Shown here: in pieces, positions 1,306 through 23,215 of the stretch
Numbering within the stretch: the first letter of the stretch is position 1
How the letters are laid out: each line of letters begins with the position of its first letter
Assembly: GCA_021734245.1 (NCBI GenBank)
Contig: JAIPJH010000013.1
Span: 1 to 42,163, forward strand
From: Candidatus Cloacimonadota bacterium
Lineage (GTDB): Bacteria > Cloacimonadota > Cloacimonadia > Cloacimonadales > TCS61
DNA length: 42,163 nucleotides
Direction: 5' to 3'
Translations under genes and position numbers: made by a program
Notes under the pieces: model-generated
What the model was told of the DNA's origin: nothing
Database searches by the model: none
What the model saw: the letters and a program-made list of their open reading frames with translations, nothing else

Positions 1306-1857
1306 ATGGCTTGGATTAAACAGCTAAAGAAAGAAGAGCTTACGGAAGAGCATGAAAAATATTTGAAAGAGATGAAAACTTCCTGGGATCGAATGGGAAA
1401 TATTCTTAAAGTTCAGAGTATTAAACCTTCCTCAATGAAGCAGCACGCTCTTTTCTACAAATCTTTAATGTTCGAAAAATCCTGCTTAACTCGTTCACAA
1501 AGAGAAATGATCGCGGTTGTTGTTTCCAAGGTAAATTTGTGTGAATACTGAATTACTCATCATGGAGAAGCTCTTCTCCATCTTACTAAAAATGAACAGC
1601 TTGTGAATTCTATCAAACAGGATTTTAGAACTGCTGAAATTTCCAATATGGAAAAGTCCATGTTGATTTATGCTGAAGCTTTGGCTACAGAACCCTGTCG
1701 GATCGCTGAAAAACATATAAAGCATTTACGGGAAGTAGGCTTTGATGATGAAGCGATTTTGGATATAAACTTAATTTCCAGTTATTTCTCTTTCGTTAAT
1801 AGACTTTCTTGTGGATTAGGTGTAGAATTGGAAGATTACTTGGTCAATTCAAAATAA
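1306..1857 (+). CDS. AhpD-like / peroxidase-related selenoprotein (in-frame UGA = Sec82)
   Basis: Reading through the TGA at 1549-1551 gives one 183-residue protein with no other stop. It matches the peroxidase-related branch of the AhpD/carboxymuconolactone decarboxylase fold: an N-terminal helical part, TRSQREMIAVVVSKVN, then the catalytic motif C79-E-Y-U82-I-T-H-H. Ordinary members have CxYCxxHH, so TGA stands exactly where the catalytic cysteine should be. The C-terminal half (LIYAEALATEP, GFDDEAILDIN, FVNRLSCGLGVE) is well preserved after the TGA, which argues against a decayed gene. A perfect hairpin follows the TGA (see 1549-1581). Expected function is thiol/selenol-dependent peroxide reduction in the cytoplasm. 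A plain annotation would split this gene into 1306-1551 and 1603-1857. Confidence 0.88.
1549..1581 (+). promoter_or_regulatory. Bacterial SECIS element after UGA
   Basis: TGA lies at 1549-1551. ATGGAGAA (1562-1569) pairs perfectly with TTCTCCAT (1574-1581) around the four-base loop GCTC (1570-1573). Loop size, a G at the first loop position and 18 bases between the UGA and the loop all fit the known rules for bacterial SECIS elements recognised by SelB. The hairpin is inside the coding sequence, as is usual in bacteria. Confidence 0.82.
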
Positions 1858-2007: not shown

Positions 2008-3339
2008 TTATCCGCTAATCGCTAATTCCCTGATCAGAACAGAAGCAGTTCCTATGGAGCTGCTGTTGAAGTGGAAATTATCTGCAATCATTTCTACGTT
2101 TTGCAGTATTTTCAGGAAGTTTCCAGAAACTGTGAACTGCTTTAATGAATGCTGTCTTTTACCGTTTTCGTATAAGAAACCTTCCGCAGAAAGTGAAAAG
2201 TCTCCAGAAATTGTATTTGCACCTGCATGCATTCCCTGCAAAGCAACGATCTCGATCACTTTGTCATGAGTTGCTAAAAGTTCATTTTCTTTGTTTTTTC
2301 CTGGTTCCAGAATCAAGTTAGAAACAGAAATTCCCAAACTTCCTTTATAACCTCTGCTGCCGTTTCCTGTAGAATTAACTTTATCCTTCAAGGCTGTTTT
2401 TGTGTTGTGTAAATAGGAATTCAACTTACCACTTTTGATGAGAACAGTTTTCTGAGATGGATAGCCTTCACTGTCGAAATGACGGGAATTTGCACCTTCG
2501 GGATGTAGAGCATCATCGATGATGTTCACTTTTTCATTGGCTATCTTCTGCCCCATTTTACCGATGAGAAGTGATTTTCCCTGATGAACTGAATCGGCAT
2601 AGAAAACACTGGCAAAAGTTCCCAGCATTGTTGCCATCATTTCATTATTGAAAACAACAGGGTATTTTCCCGATTTTACCGGTTTTCCACCCAGAAGATC
2701 GGTACTTTTTTTCACGCTAATCTCAGCCAGTTTCTTCGGATCGATCTTGTTGAAATCTCTACCAATAAAAAATTCGATACCAACTCTTTTGTCATCATTC
2801 TGTTGTGACAAAGCACCAACATAACAAAAAGCTGAATTCTGTTTTTCTTCTTTGTTCAATCCTTTGCTGTTGGCAATTTTACTGTATGCTTTTGTATCTC
2901 CATAAACAGCATAAGGAACGTTAAAAACACGTGCATCGGCTGCTTTGGCATATTTTTCCAGATCTTTGGCAATTTGGATTTTATCTTCCACATCCACTTT
3001 ATCCAATTCTTTGCTGTAAAGATCAAGTTCGGCAGCCACGGCGGGATAATCTGCCATAATTGCCGGATCGGAATCTTCATTCAGTTTAGCATTTTCCACA
3101 GCTTCATCCACAACCATTTTGAATGATTCTTCATCAAACTTTTCTGTGTAGGAATAACCAAGTTTTCCTTCCACGATTACTCGCACTCCCAATCCTTTGG
3201 CATCAGAATAATTGAAAGATTCAATTTCCTGCTGGTTTATCCTGGTTTGGAACGAATTCGTAGCAGAAAGAACGATCTCGATATCATCTACTTTTCCCTG
3301 AGCGTAATCAAAAATAAATTTAAATTCTTTATCGTACAT
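2008..3339 (-). CDS. tldE: TldE/PmbA-type subunit of the TldD/TldE protease
   Basis: This 443-residue protein belongs to the TldD/PmbA family. It has the family N-terminal domain (NSFQTRINQQEIESF, GLGVRVIVEGKLGYSYT) and C-terminal motifs (DSEGYPSQKTVLIKSG, STGNGSRGYKGS), but it lacks the HExxxH zinc motif of TldD, as expected for the TldE partner. In characterised systems the TldD/TldE heterodimer is a cytoplasmic metalloprotease that degrades unfolded peptides and matures some ribosomal peptides. It lies nine bases downstream of tldD on the same strand, so the two should be co-transcribed and co-translated. The Shine-Dalgarno AGGAGGAAAG precedes the ATG. No RiPP precursor is evident nearby. 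Confidence 0.9.
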   Translation of the reverse strand: MYDKEFKFIFDYAQGKVDDIEIVLSATNSFQTRINQQEIESFNYSDAKGLGVRVIVEGKLGYSYTEKFDEESFKMVVDEAVENAKLNEDSDPAIMADYPAVAAELDLYSKELDKVDVEDKIQIAKDLEKYAKAADARVFNVPYAVYGDTKAYSKIANSKGLNKEEKQNSAFCYVGALSQQNDDKRVGIEFFIGRDFNKIDPKKLAEISVKKSTDLLGGKPVKSGKYPVVFNNEMMATMLGTFASVFYADSVHQGKSLLIGKMGQKIANEKVNIIDDALHPEGANSRHFDSEGYPSQKTVLIKSGKLNSYLHNTKTALKDKVNSTGNGSRGYKGSLGISVSNLILEPGKNKENELLATHDKVIEIVALQGMHAGANTISGDFSLSAEGFLYENGKRQHSLKQFTVSGNFLKILQNVEMIADNFHFNSSSIGTASVLIRELAISG

Positions 3340-3348
3340 TCTTTCCTC

Positions 3349-4731
3349 CTACTTTCTTCCACCAACGATTATTTCATCGATCTTAACTGCCGGCTGACCG
3401 ACATTGGCAGGAATGCTGCCGCTTACCGATCCGCACATTCCGGGTGCCATTTTCAAGTTATCTGCTACCATACTGATCTGCTTTATCGATTCGGGACCGT
3501 TTCCAATCAGGCTGGCTCCACGCACAGGTTCAGCAATTTTGCCTTTGCGGATAATGTAGCCCTCATTTACTGCGAAATTGAAATTCCCTGTTCCGGGCAT
3601 CACAGAACCACCACCCATTTTCTTAGCATAAATTCCATAATCTACAGAAGAAATAAGATCTTCCAATTTACTGGTTCCAGCTGCAATGTAAGTGTTTCTC
3701 ATTCTTGAAGCTGGTGCAAATTTATAAGATTGACGACGACCGCTTCCAGTTCTGGCATAACCTGTTTTGATACTTCCCATTTTATCTACGATGAATGATT
3801 TCAAAATGCCATTTTCGATGAGAACAGTTTTCTGAGTCGGCATACCTTCATCATCGATATTTGTACTTCCCCAACCATTGGGAGTTGTGCCATCATCGAT
3901 AGCTGTAAGAACAGGATTTGCTACACGTTTTCCCATTTTATCGGCAAACACGGAAGCACCTTTTGCTACTGAAGTAGTTTCCAGTGCATGTCCGCAGGCT
4001 TCGTGGAAAATAACTCCACCAAAACCATTATCGACTACAACCGGGAATTTTCCGCTTGGTGCATAATCAGCATTCAGCATCAAAATTGCTGTTTTGGCAA
4101 TTTTCTCTCCCAGTTCGATCGGGTCGATCTCGTGCAATAATTCAAAACCTTTGTGTTCACCTGGTCCGTCACTGCAAGATTGTTTTTCGCTTCCCTTGGA
4201 AGCAATTGCATTAGCTGAAACACGAGTGTATGTGCGGCTGTCTTCTGCCCAAAGACCTTCACTGTTGGCGATCATGATCTTCTGCATTTTTCCCAGTAAA
4301 TTCATATCTACCTGAGTTATCATGTCACTCACCGATCTTGCGGCTTTATCGATTCTTCTCAGATAATCGACTTTTTCACTTTTGGGAACGCTGTCATTTG
4401 GTATTTTGATGGGATGTAAGTTGGTGAAAGTGTTTTTTGTAAGATCGATAGATGTGATGATTTTTCCACCTTTTGCTGCTTTACTAACTGCATCTGCGGC
4501 AGCCAGTAATGATCTTTCCGAAAGATCATTGGTATAGGCATAAATGGCTGTTGTTCCATAAAAAACGCGAACACCAGCTCCAAAATCTTTCCCGGCAATA
4601 CTTTGCTTTGTTTTGCTGTCGTTAAAAGAAATGCGTGAATTGTAAGTGTCTTCCACGTAGATCTCTGCAAAGTCTGCTCCGTTGGAAAGTGCCTTATCGA
4701 TGACCTTCTCGATAAGTTTTCTGTCTAACAT
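3349..4731 (-). CDS. tldD: TldD metalloprotease subunit
   Basis: This 460-residue protein carries the catalytic zinc motif H243-E-A-C-G-H248 within GGVIFHEACGHALE. It also has the usual TldD downstream motifs: GWGSTNIDDEGMPTQ, a glycine/arginine stretch before SYKFAPASRMRNT, and the C-terminal MCGSVSGSIPANVGQPA with a conserved cysteine. It is the active subunit of the TldD/TldE protease, with tldE directly downstream. The start is set by AGGAGGTTGA just before the ATG. A TTGACA box lies about 60 bases upstream. Length and motifs are normal for the family. Confidence 0.95.
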   Translation of the reverse strand: MLDRKLIEKVIDKALSNGADFAEIYVEDTYNSRISFNDSKTKQSIAGKDFGAGVRVFYGTTAIYAYTNDLSERSLLAAADAVSKAAKGGKIITSIDLTKNTFTNLHPIKIPNDSVPKSEKVDYLRRIDKAARSVSDMITQVDMNLLGKMQKIMIANSEGLWAEDSRTYTRVSANAIASKGSEKQSCSDGPGEHKGFELLHEIDPIELGEKIAKTAILMLNADYAPSGKFPVVVDNGFGGVIFHEACGHALETTSVAKGASVFADKMGKRVANPVLTAIDDGTTPNGWGSTNIDDEGMPTQKTVLIENGILKSFIVDKMGSIKTGYARTGSGRRQSYKFAPASRMRNTYIAAGTSKLEDLISSVDYGIYAKKMGGGSVMPGTGNFNFAVNEGYIIRKGKIAEPVRGASLIGNGPESIKQISMVADNLKMAPGMCGSVSGSIPANVGQPAVKIDEIIVGGRK

Positions 4732-5064: not shown

Positions 5065-5539
5065 ACCATTGCGGAGGTCTTCCGCAAGGTTTCGAGGTTG
5101 GTTTCTTCGTCTCGATTGAACTTATTGTTTTTACTGATCGTCCACGATCAGATATGTGGAATTTTCGAGACGAAAAATTGTAAATGCTCAGACTCCACAA
5201 GACGTGAAACCCAACAAGAAATCATCATCAGCGACAGGCTGAAGCCTGACGCTGAAACGAATAAAGTCCTGCGGACTGATTAACAAACCATTGCGGAGGT
5301 CTAACGCCCATCCGCAAGATTATGAGGTTGGTTCAATCGTCTCGATTGAACTTATTGTTTTTACTGATCGTCCACGATCAGATATGTGGAATTTTCGAGA
5401 CGAAAAATTGTAAATGCTCAGACTCCACAAGACGTGAAGCCCAACAAGAAATCATCATCGGCGACAGACTGAAGCCTGACGCTAAAACGAATAAAGTCCT
5501 GCGGACTGATTAACAACCATTGCATCCGCAAGGTAAGGT
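5065..5539. repeat. Tandem 222/229-bp repeat with nested hairpins
   Basis: Unit 1 is 5065-5286, unit 2 is 5287-5515, and a truncated third unit starts at 5516. Each unit nests one perfect hairpin (CTGATCGT with ACGATCAG) inside a second perfect stem (CGTCTCGA with TCGAGACG). Each also ends with small hairpins CAGGCT-GA-AGCCTG and AGTCC-TGC-GGACT. In unit 2 GTTCAATCG pairs with CGATTGAAC, an option lost in unit 1. The leading GCGGA/TCCGC stem is kept in both units although the loops differ in length. Short open frames here are by-products of the repeat. Confidence 0.85.
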
Positions 5540-22027: not shown

Positions 22028-23009
22028 GTTTGTGCATCCTGACTGGTTCTGGGCATTTTTTATTTTGATCCCGTATCTGCTTTATGAGATATTCTTCAAG
22101 CAGAAAAGAAAAGTTCGTTTGCTGCACAGTCGAGTTGAACTTCTTAAGAAAATTTCCGGCAGCAGTTGGATCTATAATTATTTTCCAATTCTTTTAAGAA
22201 CTCTTGTTATTGCACTTCTTATCCTGGCTTTAGCACGTCCGCGCCTGGCTCATAAAAGGCAGCAGATCACCGGCAAAGGCATCGATATTATGCTGGCTGT
22301 AGACGTTAGTGGAAGTATGCAGGCAGTTGACTTCCAACCCACAAACCGCTTGGAAGCTGCCAAAGAAGTTGCCAAAGAATTTATTAATAAACGCCGAAAC
22401 GACAGGATCGGGATGATCGTGTTTGCCGAAAATGCTTTCACACAATGTCCACTCACTTTGGATTACAATATTCTGATGACAATTATGGACAACGTGGAAA
22501 TCAACAAAGAAGCGAATGGAACTGCGATAGGGATGGGTTTAGCCACTTCTGTAGCGAGGCTGCGCGAATCGGAAGCAAAATCTAAAGTAATAATTTTAAT
22601 AACAGATGGTAGAAACAATGCCGGCGAGATCGATCCGCTCACAGCTGCTGATCTGGCAGCAACCTACGATATAAAAGTTTATCCGATTGGCGTTGGTAGT
22701 ACCGGTTTGGTAGATTTTCCGATACAAACAGCTTTCGGAATACAATATCGCAAAGTTAAGATCGATATCGATATGGACACTTTAAACGACATTGCTGAAA
22801 AAACTGGAACAGAAAGAGCACTGAGAGCTACAAACACAGCAGAATTAGAAGCCATCATGAAACATATCGATGAAATGGAAAAAACTGAGATCAAGATCAA
22901 TGATTATTACGTTTACCAGGAAATGTTCTGGCGTTTTCTTTTATTGGCATTTGCACTTTTGATGATCGAATTTATTTTTAGAATTGTAATAAGGAAAGAG
23001 ATTCCGTGA
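22020..23009 (+). CDS. batA: BatA: VWA-domain inner-membrane protein
   Basis: This 329-residue protein has two N-terminal membrane segments (about 8-24 and 56-72), a VWA domain with an intact MIDAS motif D95-V-S97-G-S99, and a C-terminal membrane segment (about 306-323). The order and the motif match BatA of the Bacteroides aerotolerance operon. The VWA domain is expected to bind a divalent metal and mediate protein contacts, perhaps under MoxR control. It overlaps the BatD-like gene by 8 bp. The 206-bp gap that follows is unusual in this compact operon. Confidence 0.9.
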   Translation: MLEFVHPDWFWAFFILIPYLLYEIFFKQKRKVRLLHSRVELLKKISGSSWIYNYFPILLRTLVIALLILALARPRLAHKRQQITGKGIDIMLAVDVSGSMQAVDFQPTNRLEAAKEVAKEFINKRRNDRIGMIVFAENAFTQCPLTLDYNILMTIMDNVEINKEANGTAIGMGLATSVARLRESEAKSKVIILITDGRNNAGEIDPLTAADLAATYDIKVYPIGVGSTGLVDFPIQTAFGIQYRKVKIDIDMDTLNDIAEKTGTERALRATNTAELEAIMKHIDEMEKTEIKINDYYVYQEMFWRFLLLAFALLMIEFIFRIVIRKEIP

Positions 23010-23215
23010 TGGAAATGGAAAGACACACAGTATTTGAGACTCTGCGACGATGTGACTATGAGAATTTGTGAAAATGAGAAAATGGAGTAAGTGAAATAGC
23101 TATGTTGCTTTTTAAATTGAATCAGTTATCTGCGAAAATAGGCGTAAATCAGCGGTTAAAAAATATACAAATGAACATTTTTTGTTCGTTTTTGTTCGCT
23201 GCAAAAGGTTAAATT
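23010..23215. other. Spacer between batA and batB, partly repeat-derived
   Basis: No gene is seen. A purine stretch GAGAATTTGTGAAAATGAGA at 23060-23079 recalls the GAGAAATGAGAG part of the 1-310 repeat. At 23130-23158 lies ATCTGCGAAAATAGGCG followed by TAAATCAGCGGTTAAA, a short element of a type often dispersed in bacterial spacers. AAGGTTAAATT before 23216 holds the batB ribosome-binding site. Confidence 0.5.

Follow-up and report, generated by a model that had tools for sequence, protein, structure and literature searches.

The window analysed here is a 42,163-nt stretch of DNA from a Candidatus Cloacimonadota bacterium (assembly GCA_021734245.1, contig JAIPJH010000013.1, positions 1 to 42,163). 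The features considered are as follows.

1306 to 1857, + strand: gene of a predicted AhpD-like/peroxidase-related (TIGR01926) selenoprotein, 183 residues with Sec at residue 82, recognised as a single frame with one TGA and by its TIGR01926 and Pfam CMD profile scores.
1540 to 1551, + strand: codons of the redox motif C-E-Y-U (Cys79 ... Sec82); homologues have Cys at 79 and Cys or UGA at 82.
1549 to 1551, + strand: predicted Sec-UGA codon (codon 82), in frame and aligned with the second Cys of CxxC.
1562 to 1581, + strand: predicted bacterial SECIS (bSECIS) hairpin with an 8-bp stem (1562-1569/1574-1581) and the loop GCUC (1570-1573), recognised by its fold, the stem statistics of UGA versus Cys relatives and the loop offset of fdhF.

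The ATG at 1306 is in frame with the TGA at 1549-1551 and no other stop is found until the TAA at 1855-1857. Translation of the gene with table 11 gives an 81-aa stub, and about 100 conserved codons continue downstream of the UGA in the same frame. The upstream neighbour is a TerB-like gene (401-1015), and the downstream neighbour is a TldD/PmbA-type protease pair on the opposite strand (2008-4731). An intergenic tandem repeat (unit length 230 bp, 1.9 copies with 94% matches) lies at 5081-5523, and at 1-310, before the first gene, two near-identical copies of a stretch rich in GACTTTGAGACTTTG and AACCATGAC were seen by eye.

The protein is a member of TIGR01926, where it scores 150.1 bits (cut-off 81.8), and also matches the Pfam CMD profile (41.2 bits against 23). 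With NF041238, the AhpD_rel_CFYUT (seleno)protein model, it shares the AhpD domain and CxxU, but its score of 46.9 bits lies below the cut-off of 175 and it is not a member. By sequence, the closest relatives of solved structure are peroxidase-related or AhpD proteins, namely 3c1l (E 1.3e-24), 2pfx, 6k40, 2oyo and 2prr. Since the aligned motif of 3c1l is C-Y-Y-C, the UGA of the window motif CEYU falls at the second Cys position, where 22 homologues have Cys. By analogy with the AhpD family, this second CxxC position would be the more reactive, peroxidatic centre.

The first-pass annotation of this DNA had described a TGA followed by a perfect 8-bp stem with a four-base loop beginning in G, and the in-frame TGA and the predicted fold bear this out: RNAfold returned exactly the 1562-1581 helix, with arms ATGGAGAA (1562-1569) and TTCTCCAT (1574-1581) and loop GCTC in the DNA, at -9.3 kcal/mol (z -2.9; 3 of 200 shuffles were equally stable). 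Its placement of the hairpin 18 bases after the UGA holds for the loop, which is separated from the UGA by 18 nt, but not for the stem, which starts at 10 nt. A 2026 review (PMC13188914) gives as limits for bSECIS elements a loop of 3-9 nt, an upper stem of 4-16 bp, a G in loop positions 1-2, a spacing of 16-37 nt and an MFE of -7.5 kcal/mol or lower. The 4-nt loop, the 8-bp stem, the UGA-to-loop spacing and the MFE all fall within them; GCUC has the early G but lacks the commoner pattern of G followed by G or U. In the SECIS of Escherichia coli fdhF the four-base loop likewise begins with G and starts, as here, at +19 after the UGA, whereas fdhF has a bulged base that the perfect 8-bp stem of the window gene lacks, the loop here is GCUC rather than GGUC, and the proteins differ.

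The two strands of the window together contain 1,841 TGA triplets, and 13 of these are followed at SECIS distance by a hairpin that scores at least as well, so that the hairpin by itself is about a 0.7% event; besides the Sec-UGA, the 13 include the TGA at 1542, which sees the same 1562-1581 hairpin. The rarity therefore lies in the combination of the hairpin with a UGA at the catalytic Cys, not in the hairpin alone. When the amino acids were held fixed and synonymous codons drawn from window usage, 52 of 20,000 versions reached the stem score of the window.

The genome (3.1 Mb in 137 contigs, 98.5% complete) was searched with profiles for the selenocysteine machinery. SelB was found at 347.5 bits (cut-off 242.25) with its GTPase, beta-barrel and winged-helix (SelB-wing_3) domains, and it is adjoined on the opposite strand by a tRNA-Sec gene with anticodon TCA (60.1 bits against 47). 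SelD scored 359.6 bits and contains one in-frame TGA. SelA is partial: the match covers the first 148 of the 455 profile positions and is cut off where contig C50 ends (22714-23151), and the remainder was not found in the assembly. The genome thus encodes a SelB with the winged-helix domain, together with tRNA-Sec and SelD, and binding of this SelB to the hairpin, which the earlier reading of the locus required, is predicted. By hand reading, the tRNA-Sec gene (L001:1266-1360) apparently combines an acceptor arm of 7 nt with a short linker, in which it would resemble the 'Cloacimonetes type' of PMC5330540. In the SelD gene (L018, contig C93) the UGA lies near the N-terminus and is followed by two overlapping hairpins. 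One has the loop GGC at +18, in agreement with bSECIS spacing; the other is more stable, but its loop, from +7, does not fit.

If UGA were read in this organism as an ordinary amino acid, a SECIS would be unnecessary, and the single in-frame UGA of the 1306-1857 gene with another in selD could be taken in that sense. TGA, however, terminates 4 of the 38 main ORFs of the window and is thus a normal stop elsewhere, only SelD among the SelB, SelA and SelD matches has an internal TGA, and the genome has both tRNA-Sec and SelB; we regard a code change as exceedingly unlikely.

Homologues were collected from the phylum and beyond. The gene is present in 13 of 124 genomes of the phylum, seven with UGA at codon 82 and six with Cys. 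Wider searches added 17 loci from named genomes, and searches with an E cut-off of 1e-30 gave matches in 11 of the 40 genomes belonging to the same phylum as G125 (the G125 locus, L034, is titled Calditrichaeota) and in 36 of 386 domain-wide relatives; 12 of the 42 domain-wide matches, nine of them with one TGA, were left out of the analysis. From 71 loci (L020-L090), removal of L049 and L063, in which codon 82 is not covered, and of 12 duplicates left 57 non-redundant homologues, window gene included, of which 35 have UGA and 22 Cys at codon 82; since a tree of the 57 needs four Sec/Cys changes, with UGA and Cys forms clustered, UGA-versus-Cys counts overstate independence and represent few independent events. 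Clustering at 60% identity gave 34 representatives (18 UGA and 16 Cys); the stem counts below refer to the full 57. SelB occurs in all seven phylum genomes with the UGA form and in five of the six with the Cys form, which does not separate the two, while the UGA genomes are separated from all remaining phylum genomes (51 of 117). It is absent above the cut-off from three of the 13 named MAGs bearing the UGA form.

These relatives also bear on whether the UGA is a true stop or an assembly error, the gene being broken and the hairpin a chance palindrome. The 13 TGA triplets with comparable hairpins and the fragmented state of the assembly would favour such a reading; against it stand the conserved codons beyond the UGA, the Sec machinery of the genome and the UGA found at the same codon in 34 of the 56 other homologues. 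Because relatives carry UGA at the same site, a broken gene or assembly error is very improbable. Both this reading and that of an altered code throughout the genome were rejected.

The hairpin was then compared between UGA and Cys forms, scanning for loops of 3-9 nt with G in loop positions 1-2, at least 16 nt from the UGA, and loop starts at offsets 17 to 31. Of the 35 UGA forms, 34 have a stem of at least 5 bp that fits the bSECIS rules, as against 1 of the 22 Cys forms (Fisher p 2e-13 with relatedness ignored), and the stem is thus retained in homologues with UGA, the point on which the first-pass proposal would have failed had it been otherwise. With synonymous shuffles using the codon usage of each gene, the median p was 0.03 in UGA forms (p < 0.05 in 20 of 35) and 0.61 in Cys forms (0 of 22). 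The suggestion that the hairpin was selected at synonymous sites is supported by the Leu at codon +8 from the UGA (1573-1575), for which CTC is used in 29 of 35 UGA forms versus 3 of 22 Cys forms. The residue after HH is Gly in 29 of 35 UGA forms, compared with 8 of 22 among the Cys forms. One Cys homologue, L027, shares H-H-G-E-A-L with the window gene, but its Leu is TTG, followed by Asn, and it is without such a stem. The one UGA form lacking a rule-fitting SECIS, L045 (in G136), has by eye a different hairpin whose loop is without an early G, and its assembly is without SelB above the cut-off. The one Cys form with a SECIS-like stem (5 bp), L086, does not group with the main Cys clade in the tree; a recent Sec-to-Cys change with a remnant signal is possible.

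A hairpin in the mRNA could instead serve pausing or stability, with Sec inserted by some other downstream signal, and at gathering thresholds Rfam gave no match in the window, as such a role would allow. The position, loop G and spacing nevertheless match the bSECIS model and fdhF, and the stem accompanies UGA in relatives and is missing from Cys forms, so this alternative is given very little weight. The loop at +19, as in fdhF, and the possible SelD hairpin with its loop at +18 make a standard SelB-dependent bSECIS the simplest reading. We are highly confident that the 1562-1581 hairpin is a bSECIS directing SelB-dependent Sec insertion at the UGA of an AhpD-like enzyme. The observations are the reading frame, a UGA in place of the catalytic Cys, the hairpin and its co-occurrence with UGA among relatives, and the genes of the machinery; from them we infer Sec insertion, binding by the SelB of the genome and enzyme activity. 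In the proposed mechanism SelB carrying Sec-tRNA-Sec would bind the hairpin loop just 3′ of the UGA, and once the ribosome arrives at this codon selenocysteine would be delivered in place of termination. The product would be an AhpD-like member of the carboxymuconolactone decarboxylase family with Sec for the second Cys of C-x-x-C, probably reducing peroxides or another oxidised substrate through a Cys79-Sec82 selenenylsulfide cycle.

Compensatory changes, which the first-pass annotation had proposed to look for in the stem, were assessed in the majority register with 31 of the 35 UGA rows, omitting L061, L062 and L081, whose stems lie elsewhere, and L045, whose stem is outside the rules. In this register 84.4% of cells are paired, versus 28-54% after sliding by 1-3 columns. 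One of six pairs is changed on both sides (C-G to U-A, six rows), and other variation is mostly G-U. The count of both-side-changed pairs was reached in 460 of 500 shuffles and the number of further pair types in 497 of 500; the covariation score, in contrast, was reached in 5 of 500, and the number of cells changed on both sides in 0 of 500. Fixed-register covariation across UGA forms is modest and weaker than the first-pass annotation would lead one to expect, because the place of the 3′ arm varies from one relative to another. The offsets of paired positions from the UGA sum to 38 in most UGA forms, to 41 in the window, L028 and L035, to 40 in L056, L076 and L077, to 42 in L080, to 37 in L089 and to 55 in L061, L062 and L081. 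In the last three, a subfamily of UGA forms, the hairpin is placed some 7 nt further downstream, with its loop from +25. Most relatives found here have the 3′ stem arm 3 nt nearer to the UGA than the window gene does. L028 has both its register and the loop GCUC in common with the window, and the two differ on both sides in three pairs. We tentatively suggest that one selenoprotein family may rebuild its SECIS hairpin from different codons: the 5′ arm and loop distance would stay mostly fixed, with the loop beginning at around +17 to +20. From lineage to lineage the 3′ arm would be displaced by 1 to 4 nt, which in the window and G086 is 3 nt or a single codon, or else the entire hairpin would be placed 7 nt downstream, the residues changing with it.

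Published selenoprotein surveys and reviews already cover this family with its CxxU site, and signals of this kind are known as well. PMC13188914 lists an AhpD-like protein (TIGR01926, CxxU) as a selenoprotein family, PMC9312934 gives COG2128 (YciW) with CxxU, PMC1088965 reports 27 AhpD-like sequences among new selenoproteins, PMC2398784 counts 299 of AhpD-like 1, and PMC1794560 includes AhpD-like COG2128 too, with a description of SECIS-like remnants in Cys forms. The window gene agrees with this selenoprotein of the Sargasso Sea and GOS surveys in family model, CxxU position and a bSECIS after the UGA. A literature search for selenoproteins with Cloacimon- returned a single paper, which deals with tRNA-Sec. 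The locus adds a well-supported Sec-encoding gene to a probably uncultured lineage and is another case in a catalogued family rather than a surprise. The AhpD-like family offers a natural data set in which a coding-region RNA signal and the protein sequence constrain each other, and if the hairpin is indeed rebuilt between lineages, SelB would select the place of the loop and not the sequence of the 3′ arm.
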